This document shows positions 38,869-42,752 of a stretch of 63,046 bases of DNA, one piece after another. The notes under the pieces are model-generated. The model saw only the letters and a program-made list of their open reading frames with translations. It was not told where the DNA came from and did no database searches. Origin of the DNA: Chitinophagales bacterium (GTDB lineage Bacteria; Bacteroidota; Bacteroidia; Chitinophagales; LD1); the NCBI GenBank assembly GCA_016786765.1, contig JAEUUZ010000049.1, positions 1-63,046 of the forward strand, written 5' to 3'. The position numbers and the translations under genes were made by a program. Positions within the stretch are counted from its first letter, which is position 1. Each line of letters opens with the position of its first letter.

Positions 38869-40176
38869 ATGAAACATAAAATTGGATTTTATACTGCACT
38901 ATCTATAGTAGTGGCTAACATGGTAGGCACAGGAGTGTTCACCAGCTTAGGCTATCAACTCCTAGGTCTAAACAATTTTGCTGCCATTATTCTATTGTGG
39001 AGTGTAGGAGGATTGATTGCACTTTTTGGATCTTTTGCTTACAGCGAATTAGGAGCAGCCATTCCGCGATCTGGAGGCGAATATCGTTTTCTCAGCGAAA
39101 TCTATCATCCTTTTATTGGATTTCTCTCGGGCTGGATTTCGGCCACCATAGGCTTTGCAGCACCTATTGCTGCTGCATCGTGGGCACTAGGCAAATATGC
39201 AGCCACTATTTTTCCGAGTATTCCTCCCCAGCTATTAGGGGCTTTAGTAATTGTGTTGGTAACCTTGGTGCAATCGCTCAATCATAATGTTGGAGGGCGT
39301 TTTCAATCGATAGCTACCACACTTAAAATTATTTTGATTCTTGTACTTGTAGGCTTTGGTTTGTTAAGTGCTCCGGCATTGAACATCACTTTTGCTCCAA
39401 CCGCTGCTACGTGGAAGGAAGTAACCAGCGCTTCGTTCGCTATTTCGTTGGTGTATGTTTCGTATGCCTATTCCGGATGGAATGCATCCTCTTACATTGC
39501 CGGAGAAATGGAAAACCCGAAAAAAAACATTCCGCTTTCAATTTTAAGCGGAACCGTTCTGGTTGCAATTTTGTATATCCTACTGAATTATGTTTTCTTG
39601 CGTACTGCACCCGTAGAAGAAATGAAGGGTGTAGCAGAAGTCGCCTTCGTGTCAGCCAAATACATATTTGGTGACTATGGCAGCAAAGTGATTTCTGTAA
39701 TGATTTCCCTTTTACTTGTCTCTACCATCAGCTCTATGGTAATTGTTGGACCAAGAGTAATTCATGCTATGGGTGAGGATTATCCCTTATTTGCCATCAT
39801 TACCAAAAAGAACAATCACGGCATACCCGTTTACGCCATTATCTTGCAATCGCTTATTGCTATTGTATTGTTATACTCTTCCAGTTTCGACACTATAATC
39901 ACTTATATTTCGTTCACCTTAACTTTATTCTCAACACTTACTGTATTAGGCGTTATTATCTTCCGTATAAAACAACCCGATGTAGAACGACCGTATAAAA
40001 CATGGGGTTACCCGGTTACACCTATTGTTTACATACTTGTTAACGGTTGGTTTTTATACTTTGTCATTAAAGGAAAACCTAACGAATCACTTATAGGTGT
40101 TGGCATTGTGGCAATTGGTGCAGTGGCCTATTATTTAACAAACCATTTCTTGTCTAAAAAAGAACTTTCAAAATGA
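38869..40176 (+). CDS. APC-family amino acid permease
   Basis: A 435-residue inner-membrane protein with about 12 helices. The first unwound helix VANMVGTGVFTSLGY carries the G[ST]G[IV]-type substrate motif of the APC superfamily, and the conserved SELGAAIPRSGGEYRFL follows. It imports or exchanges amino acids or related amines. Its stop overlaps the start of the BatD/protease fusion gene by four bases (ATGA at 40173-40176), so both are made from one message. The upstream TTTG at 38833-38836 has a poor -7 partner. Confidence 0.92.
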   Translation: MKHKIGFYTALSIVVANMVGTGVFTSLGYQLLGLNNFAAIILLWSVGGLIALFGSFAYSELGAAIPRSGGEYRFLSEIYHPFIGFLSGWISATIGFAAPIAAASWALGKYAATIFPSIPPQLLGALVIVLVTLVQSLNHNVGGRFQSIATTLKIILILVLVGFGLLSAPALNITFAPTAATWKEVTSASFAISLVYVSYAYSGWNASSYIAGEMENPKKNIPLSILSGTVLVAILYILLNYVFLRTAPVEEMKGVAEVAFVSAKYIFGDYGSKVISVMISLLLVSTISSMVIVGPRVIHAMGEDYPLFAIITKKNNHGIPVYAIILQSLIAIVLLYSSSFDTIITYISFTLTLFSTLTVLGVIIFRIKQPDVERPYKTWGYPVTPIVYILVNGWFLYFVIKGKPNESLIGVGIVAIGAVAYYLTNHFLSKKELSK

Positions 40177-41642
40177 AAAGATTATTTACCCTTTGTGTAG
40201 CAATATTATTGGTTTCAGAACTATTGGCACAAGTTAGCATTGTGGCTTCTGTAGATAAAAACCCGGTGAGTATTGGTGAAAACTTTCAACTCAAATACAC
40301 CGTGATTAACTATTCCCCCAACAAACTCAACACCCCTATGTTTATTGGTTTTGAAATTGTAAGTGGCCCAAAAAAAACCGAATCAATGGTTTTGCGCAAC
40401 AACGAGGAAGCGATATCTGGAACCGTAACGTACACGCTAAAAGCGCTACAATCCGGCACTTTTAAAATTGGAAAAGCAACGCTAACAGATAGCAGCAAAA
40501 CCTTTGCCTCGGAAGAAATCAGCTTGGTAGTAACCGACACCAAGATTGTTGACATTGTGGACGAACCCCGTTCAACAACAATTACACCCGTGCTCTCCTC
40601 CAACGATAGCCTTTATTTTAAAGATGGTACGGTGATTTCAGGGAAAGGCGCATTAGTTCAAGAATGTGTGAGTGGCATGGGAAAAAAGAAAAAGAAAAGA
40701 GATGAATTAAACGTGGATGCTGATGCTGCTTGTACCTGTATGATGGAAAAAATCGCAAAACATTATACCTATGCTGAGTTCCTTGGAGATGGCACTAAAA
40801 ATGGAGGAAACTTGTTTACTCGTTCACAAACCGAAAACCCTGAGGCCTACAAAGATATGTTGAGTTGTGTGTTTGAAAACATGGGCGCCAAAGCAAACAA
40901 TGATGCTGATAAAAAAGCTAAAACATCCGCAACAAGTAATGCTTCAACGCAGCAACCTAACGGTGATTTTATGGAAAAGTTTTTTGTTGATGCCTGTGTT
41001 CAAGCGGCTACTAAGTCGAAGGAATATAAGCAGATGAATGTTGATGCAAATAGCTATTGCCAATGTACATGGGATAAGATTCAAGAAAAGGGATTGTCGT
41101 TGGACAAACTGGGAGACTTGAACGACCCGAACTCACCCTTATTCAACGAAATTATTACTCCGTGTATAATGGCAGCCATAAAAGGCAAGAAAGATGAGCC
41201 ACAAGGCAGTACCACTTTTCTGAGAAACCCGGATGACATCAAAGGAGCAAACCCATCGGAAACAGTGAGCTTAACAAAATTGATGAACGTATACAAATTG
41301 AAAGTTTCTTTTGGCAGTGTTGAAAAATATTTCACATTGGACTCTGGGGCAAACGATGTGTTTATCAGCAGCGATTTTGAACGTGATTTGTTATTGGAAG
41401 GATTAATTAAAAAATCAGACTATCTAACAGCACGTACCTACAGAATGGCCGATGGCAGTCAAGTAGAGTGCAGACGATTAAAATTAAGCAACATCAAGAT
41501 TGGAGGGTTTACCGTTAATAACGTAATTGTTGCGATTACCGAAAACGCGAATGGTATGTTACTGTTGGGTAAATCGTTGCTTGACAAATTTAGCGATTGG
41601 AAAATCGACAATCAAAAGGAACAGTTAATTTTAACGCGATAA
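40173..41642 (+). CDS. BatD-like / retropepsin-like fusion, exported
   Basis: A 489-residue exported protein (signal peptide to about residue 19). Residues ~20-121 resemble the first domain of BatD proteins (VDKNPVSIGENFQLKYTV, then VSGP and GTVTYTLKA). Two similar cysteine modules follow: C165...NVDA...C187-T-C189...C232 and C275...NVDA...C296-Q-C298...C331. The C-terminal ~115 residues are a single-motif aspartic protease of the retropepsin type: FTLDSGANDVF with Asp390, a flap-like strand region, and GMLLLGKSLLDKF. Retropepsins act as dimers, one Asp per chain. The combination is unfamiliar to me. It is translationally coupled to the amino-acid permease. It ends one base before the convergent deacylase gene. 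Proteolysis in the periplasm or at the surface is inferred. Confidence 0.82.
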   Translation: MKRLFTLCVAILLVSELLAQVSIVASVDKNPVSIGENFQLKYTVINYSPNKLNTPMFIGFEIVSGPKKTESMVLRNNEEAISGTVTYTLKALQSGTFKIGKATLTDSSKTFASEEISLVVTDTKIVDIVDEPRSTTITPVLSSNDSLYFKDGTVISGKGALVQECVSGMGKKKKKRDELNVDADAACTCMMEKIAKHYTYAEFLGDGTKNGGNLFTRSQTENPEAYKDMLSCVFENMGAKANNDADKKAKTSATSNASTQQPNGDFMEKFFVDACVQAATKSKEYKQMNVDANSYCQCTWDKIQEKGLSLDKLGDLNDPNSPLFNEIITPCIMAAIKGKKDEPQGSTTFLRNPDDIKGANPSETVSLTKLMNVYKLKVSFGSVEKYFTLDSGANDVFISSDFERDLLLEGLIKKSDYLTARTYRMADGSQVECRRLKLSNIKIGGFTVNNVIVAITENANGMLLLGKSLLDKFSDWKIDNQKEQLILTR

Positions 41643-42752
41643 TTAAAAACACATACCGGTAGCTACTTCCCAATATTGTGCAACAGAAGTGTGTGATTTC
41701 ACGTTCATGCCCACAAAACACTTGAAGCCTTTGCGTTTACCAAATTCTGCGAGATAGTAGTTGCAGCCTGTTTTAAAATAAATAGGCTTGGTCATCATTT
41801 TAGATCCTGACACATACACCCCTAAGCCAATAAAATAGCCAATACGGCCCACAAGCACTTCATCGCCCCAAAACAAAGAGGTAACAAAAGCACTTTTTCT
41901 AGCTTCTTTTTTGGAGGCCAAATCGTTTACATAAAGAAAATCGGTAAGCCCGGGAAAATACTCCAACGCAACGCCTGCAAAAACTTTGTTCGCGGTGCTT
42001 GTATAGCGTGCATAGGCAATGGAGGCTACATGCGCAAAATAAGTGGGTCCGTTTAATCCGTTCTTTTGGTAGAGCCCTAAACCGTATCGAGCAATCACTT
42101 CATCGTGCTTTTTGGGTCGCACTTTTGTGCAGTTATAGCTATAGGTGCCTAGCTTAGGATAAACTTTGAGCCCTACTGTACCCATGGCCAAATTAATGCC
42201 ATAGTTAGGCAACTTAGCAGAGCCATTGGAAAAGTGCGCAAATGTAAAGGCTGTATTCAATACAACCTGTTTACTTACTTTCCACTCAAAACCCAAGCGA
42301 AAAGAAAAGGCTAAATTAACGGTTGATCCTACAATGTTGTTATTGGGATTCGTGATGTAGTCGTAATGCCGAGTAAGAAAGCCTAAACCAACACCAATGC
42401 GGGCGTAGCTGTTCACCACTTTGGTGCGAAACAAATAAAACTTAACAAAATGGGTTAGCGCAAAAGCATCACCAAAAATTTTATTGTCGCCAAAATGATA
42501 ATAGGTGAAAGAAAACCCCGTTTCGGGAAAATTGAGTGCTTTATGCCATGGTTTTTCGCCAAAGGTTTTTCGCGCTACAGCCAACTCGAACGAATGTGTG
42601 AAGCCTTTCGGTACATTATTGATTTTAGCGGTATGCTTTATGAAAGAACATAATTGATAATTGCCTTCAATATTCCATTTGCCCACATTCACTTCTTGTG
42701 CATGAAGGGACAAAAAAAGTAGCGCGAAAAGGAAGGTAATTGGCTGTTTCAC
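41643..42752 (-). CDS. PagL-like lipid A deacylase (acyloxyacyl hydrolase)
   Basis: A 369-residue outer-membrane protein with a signal peptide ending SLHAQ (about 19). The body is beta-barrel-like. The strand FAHFSNGSAKLPNYGINLA carries the His-x-Ser active-site pattern of PagL (His173, Ser175), here followed by the usual N..PN.G stretch. PagL enzymes remove a 3-O-acyl chain from lipid A in the outer membrane. It is about twice the length of classical PagL, as seen in other Bacteroidota homologues; the C-terminal half has similar barrel-like strands. It is convergent and nearly contiguous with the protease fusion gene. Confidence 0.82.
   Translation of the reverse strand: MKQPITFLFALLFLSLHAQEVNVGKWNIEGNYQLCSFIKHTAKINNVPKGFTHSFELAVARKTFGEKPWHKALNFPETGFSFTYYHFGDNKIFGDAFALTHFVKFYLFRTKVVNSYARIGVGLGFLTRHYDYITNPNNNIVGSTVNLAFSFRLGFEWKVSKQVVLNTAFTFAHFSNGSAKLPNYGINLAMGTVGLKVYPKLGTYSYNCTKVRPKKHDEVIARYGLGLYQKNGLNGPTYFAHVASIAYARYTSTANKVFAGVALEYFPGLTDFLYVNDLASKKEARKSAFVTSLFWGDEVLVGRIGYFIGLGVYVSGSKMMTKPIYFKTGCNYYLAEFGKRKGFKCFVGMNVKSHTSVAQYWEVATGMCF

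Follow-up and report, generated by a model that had tools for sequence, protein, structure and literature searches.

The window, a stretch of 63,046 nucleotides from a Chitinophagales bacterium, carries on its forward strand a gene for a 489-aa protein that joins a BatD-like domain, two four-cysteine modules, and a retropepsin-like aspartic protease domain behind a predicted signal peptide. The gene overlaps the end of a permease gene, and the features that matter here are as follows.

40173 to 41642, forward strand: whole gene; 489 aa, predicted exported BatD-Cys4-Cys4-retropepsin protein, with a full-length homolog (L005/L040) of 52% identity.
40173 to 40229, forward strand: signal peptide (aa 1-19), predicted by inspection of the sequence, which shows a hydrophobic core followed by ELLAQ and no lipobox; aligns with BatD signal peptides.
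40230 to 40535, forward strand: BatD first domain, a predicted beta-sandwich (aa 20-121); PF13584 at E 6e-15, pLDDT ~85, aligns with BatD N-terminal ends.
40617 to 40892, forward strand: four-cysteine module 1, predicted helical (aa 149-240), with C165, C187, C189, and C232; the KDG box of the family precedes it.
40959 to 41192, forward strand: four-cysteine module 2, predicted helical (aa 263-340), with C275, C296, C298, and C331; three helices in a single-module model, pLDDT 83.
41247 to 41639, forward strand: retropepsin-like aspartic protease domain (aa 359-489); PF13975 and PF13650 above cutoff, structure match to 5c9f.
41340 to 41351, forward strand: putative catalytic motif DSGA with Asp390; D, G, and A invariant in 10 aligned rows.
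41556 to 41570, forward strand: MLLLG (aa 462-466); L464 invariant and G466 nearly invariant in the alignment.
38869 to 40176, forward strand: upstream amino-acid permease; PF13520 at E 1.6e-48, with a 4-bp overlap between its stop codon and the protease start codon.

The coordinates and length of the reading frame, the eight module cysteines, the two NVDA motifs (positions 180 and 289), and the DSGA motif at 390 all agree with the first-pass annotation of this DNA; with positions 8 and 433, the cysteines of the protein are 8, 165, 187, 189, 232, 275, 296, 298, 331, and 433. The frame is no assembly chimera, since the full-length homolog has the same domain order and comes from another genome, a MAG of a different genus in the same family (G021, the contig of L040). 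Conservation between these two BatD-fused proteins is highest in the protease (70% identity) and in module 2 (64%), lower in module 1 (45%) and the BatD part (42%), and falls to 18-28% in two of the linkers. Such a pattern would be expected from selection on folded domains.

The C-terminal domain exceeds the gathering scores of both gag-asp_proteas (PF13975; 39.8 bits, E 7.1e-10, Pfam cutoff 28.2) and Asp_protease_2 (PF13650; 39.7 bits, E 8.2e-10, cutoff 24.3). The clan AA DTGA family TIGR02281 matches partially, over the catalytic domain, at 30.8 bits against a curated cutoff of 57.95, and the protein is therefore not filed there. Its sequence holds a single D[ST]G per chain followed by Ala (DSGA) and, downstream, the MLLLG stretch, which we take to be the equivalent of the retropepsin hydrophobic-hydrophobic-Gly motif. 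In an AlphaFold2 model of the full-length protein built on ten family members, the protease (residues 360-489) and BatD regions mostly reach pLDDT 80-92, and the module regions are of moderate confidence. The best PDB match of modeled residues 359-489 is APRc of Rickettsia conorii (5c9f; Foldseek E 2.4e-8, TM 0.71 on target), which VIA-align superposes with a Z of 13.7 and an rmsd of 3.0 over 123 residues at 23% identity; APRc again came first in a PDB sequence search (E 1.5e-7). The next structure matches include the C-terminal domain of Rv0977, the FIV and HIV proteases, and Ddi1, with a Z of 10-11.6 for the viral enzymes and Ddi1. Curated profiles and a predicted retropepsin fold thus bear out the single-Asp retropepsin-like domain that had been read from the sequence. 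A search of viral_contigs found no viral relatives. With activity a prediction for every family member, an alternative would be a protease fold that has lost its activity and now serves as a binding protein. We regard such a loss as very improbable: D-[ST]-G followed by A/S and the Leu-Gly motif are kept in members ~26-30% identical to the 489-aa protein, with DTGS in place of DSGA in one distant member, and no other part of the protein is as well conserved as the protease.

At the other end, the BatD profile (PF13584) matches aa 25-120 with 56.1 bits (E 6.1e-15, cutoff 24.1), and this curated match together with the structure model confirms the proposed BatD-like domain. BatD similarity and the aspartic-protease fold, on which the first-pass annotation had staked its reading, are thus both present in the domain search and the structure model. 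The likeness is local. The signal peptide and the first domain align only with the N-terminal end of the BatD proteins of related genomes, at ~32-40% identity, and neither further BatD domains nor a C-terminal membrane anchor was found in the 489-aa protein, where the match is confined to aa 25-120. On another contig, the source genome encodes a complete BatD beside BatE; it is 644 aa long, and inspection of its sequence shows a hydrophobic anchor segment. The protease gene lies outside the bat operon, flanked by the permease gene and a PagL-like gene. The latter (lipid A deacylase family; 41643 to 42752, reverse strand) is convergent with the protease gene and directly abuts its stop. The simplest history would be that the source species and G021, whose protease domains group together in the protease tree with a support of 93/97, share an ancestor in which the 5' part of a batD gene became joined to a gene for modules and protease. 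Within the literature searched, no paper linking BatD with an aspartyl protease was found; the papers mentioning both concern fungi.

The annotation had called the combination of BatD, modules, and protease unfamiliar, and it proves rare: a search for the same domain order found it, among the fetched relatives, only in the source species and in G021/L040. The architecture of signal peptide, two modules, and protease is more widespread, being complete in 10 of 398 genomes of the order and cut by a contig end in one more. Members occur in G027, G034, G468, G571, G591, G599, G711, and G768, and also in MAGs labeled Crocinitomicaceae, Flavobacteriales, and Bacteroidales; L047 instead combines transmembrane segments with a single module. 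When 395 genomes were sampled more broadly across the phylum, no further fused member was found at the threshold applied. In the protease tree, 13 module-bearing rows, with that of Hymenobacter tentative, stand apart from seven Bacteroidota retropepsins lacking modules with a support of 94/92, just below the starred level of the tool. The protein of the Hymenobacter monticola plasmid (L034:4548-6056, WP_243520725.1) is counted among the module bearers only tentatively, since the module profiles score it weakly, with no match above 8.4 bits. This protein is annotated as "energy transducer TonB," and Pfam finds in it both a retropepsin-like protease domain and a TonB C-terminal domain. Other fusions surfaced as well. 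A single reading frame in L037:1-1938 (G233:C22) links M28 peptidase, cyclophilin, FKBP, and retropepsin-like protease, and in L112, L113, and L035:2866-4755 Bacteroidota retropepsin-like domains are fused with TPR-looking repeat regions.

The two cysteine modules had been described as a duplication with identical cysteine spacing and a shared NVDA. The duplication holds and the equal spacing does not, the intervals being 22/2/43 in module 1 and 21/2/33 in module 2; NVDA is not conserved in the alignment of the module-protease family. With the 489-aa protein left out, a profile of second modules matches module 1 with 17.8 bits; a profile of first modules matches module 2 with 20.2 bits, and one made from standalone small proteins only matches modules 1 and 2 with 28.6 and 31.2 bits, respectively. 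In 200 shuffles with the cysteines held fixed, the best scores were 8.7 bits for the module-2 profile and 5.2 bits for the small-protein profile. By this profile evidence, modules 1 and 2 are homologous and the duplication is beyond chance. No Pfam or NCBIfam family scored above its cutoff for module 1, module 2, or ten standalone relatives. The single-module model consists of three main helices, with the first cysteine in the first, the CxC in the second, and the fourth cysteine in the third. Its comparison with the PDB returned no fold match (best Foldseek E 2.2), and a missing match does not amount to a new fold. A PDB sequence match of the module to IcmE/DotG (E 0.0055 over 33 positions) was taken as chance.

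Module-profile matches were obtained in 29 of 299 genomes of the order. Standalone modules occur in one to three copies, in tandem or alone, in predicted exported or membrane-anchored proteins of mostly about 98-240 aa. All four cysteines fall within the aligned stretch in 50 of 60 distinct module copies, most of the others being cut by the local alignment; in L072, L102, and L103, the first cysteine of module 2 is absent. The sole other copy found in the source genome besides the two of the 489-aa protein (L087; G000:C6:289898-290107), which lies outside the window, resembles module 2 and sits at the N terminus of a TonB-dependent receptor, whose gene adjoins an endonuclease/exonuclease-like gene. 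In another genome, a 235-aa predicted exported protein (L060:1054-1758; G053:C14) has both modules and the pre-module segment of the family and lacks the protease, which looks absent or lost.

What the conserved cysteines do bears directly on the regulated or redox-sensitive proteolysis suggested in the first-pass annotation; under such a scheme, the module cysteines would switch between reduced and oxidized states and thereby govern dimer formation or active-site access. The near invariance of the four cysteines of each module and the predicted exported location are compatible with such gating, as are the results for oxidative folding enzymes: neither VKOR nor DsbB was found in the source genome, so the cysteines may not be permanently oxidized. 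The suggestion is nevertheless not supported, because modules occur free-standing in small exported proteins and at a TonB-dependent receptor, with no protease to gate, and because one branch dispenses with a cysteine; C433, the lone cysteine of the protease, is likewise not conserved in the family. We therefore consider redox gating unlikely. Binding of a metal ion or an iron-sulfur cluster, which would make the N-terminal part metal responsive or metal carrying, is also improbable in our estimate. The conserved CxC with its two outer cysteines and the lack of VKOR and DsbB matches would suit it; against it, an exported location usually favors disulfides, and the branch just mentioned keeps three cysteines in module 2. 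The single DSBA-family match in the source genome is FrnE-like; together with the failure to find VKOR or DsbB, this counts to some extent against disulfides in the modules.

Genomic context might be expected to point to a substrate. The 4-bp overlap with the APC permease gene, an M19 dipeptidase gene immediately upstream of the homolog in G021, and a trypsin-like protease as the next gene in L045 would all fit a general degradative enzyme for peptide feeding that works together with the permease. Yet the permease orthologs of relatives have no protease and another gene next to them, and G021 has the protease homolog without a permease ortholog; neighbors differ among the relatives examined, and the permease was rejected as a conserved operon partner. 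Bacterial retropepsins with a known function, moreover, cut specific substrates rather than bulk protein (PMC4140852, PMC12239564), and we judge a role in feeding quite unlikely. Since no neighbors are shared in the protease family, context yields no substrate.

The reading that we favor, and regard as fairly probable, is that of a retropepsin-type aspartic endopeptidase that is exported, works as a dimer, and uses its N-terminal modules for binding or positioning. We infer export, dimerization, activity, disulfides, and docking roles for the 489-aa protein as follows. It would be periplasmic or secreted, and soluble. Residues 359-489 would form the catalytic unit, and the active form would be a homodimer in which the two Asp390 residues meet; by homology to APRc, the protein should need dimerization. 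Each module would be a small unit of three helices, probably held by disulfides, and would bind or position either the second subunit or a substrate or partner; the recurrence of modules without a protease suits a binding or structural domain. In the source species and its BatD-fused relative, the front of a BatD protein, comprising its signal peptide and first domain, would have taken the place of the original signal peptide or been added to it, and this piece would probably serve to dock the protease at another partner in the envelope. A bolder extension makes the module a recognition tag or docking unit common to the protease, the small exported proteins, and the TonB-dependent receptor, with the BatD domain tethering the protease to the Bat machinery so that it processes module-bearing envelope partners; we hold this to be doubtful.

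The catalytic type is already known, and the module is not in the profile libraries searched (Pfam, NCBIfam). The analysis defines a new subfamily of bacterial retropepsins, predicted to be exported, together with a recurring cysteine-rich domain absent from both libraries. In the literature searched, we found no description of Bacteroidota retropepsins, of the module-protease family, or of the BatD fusion. The fusion also offers a handle on the binding target of the first domain of BatD.

Among known systems, BatD of the Bat aerotolerance operon shares the signal peptide and first domain with the 489-aa protein, which lacks the later BatD domains, the membrane anchor, and adjacent bat genes. 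The function of Bat is itself unsettled, and full bat deletion in Leptospira biflexa caused no oxidative-stress defect (PMC3557215). RloA of Pseudomonas aeruginosa, compared here by its description, is likewise a bacterial enzyme of the retropepsin type, secreted and with an N-terminal signal peptide; it differs in the one disulfide inside the protease domain of its described structures and in its operon with RloB and RloC (PMC12239564), no comparable shared operon having been found around the protease-family loci examined. Known roles of bacterial retropepsins extend from action on surface proteins for APRc (PMC4140852) to osmotic stress tolerance and biofilm formation for RloA (PMC12239564). 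APRc (PDB 5c9f, 5c9b, and 5c9d) resembles the 489-aa protein in the fold of the catalytic domain, the retropepsin-type active site, and, given the predicted export of the latter, a bacterial cell-envelope location. It differs in being described as membrane embedded, and its description includes neither BatD nor four-cysteine modules. Experiments on the Rickettsia protein showed an active retropepsin-like enzyme, its accumulation in dimeric form, and its dependence on the catalytic Asp (PMC4140852).
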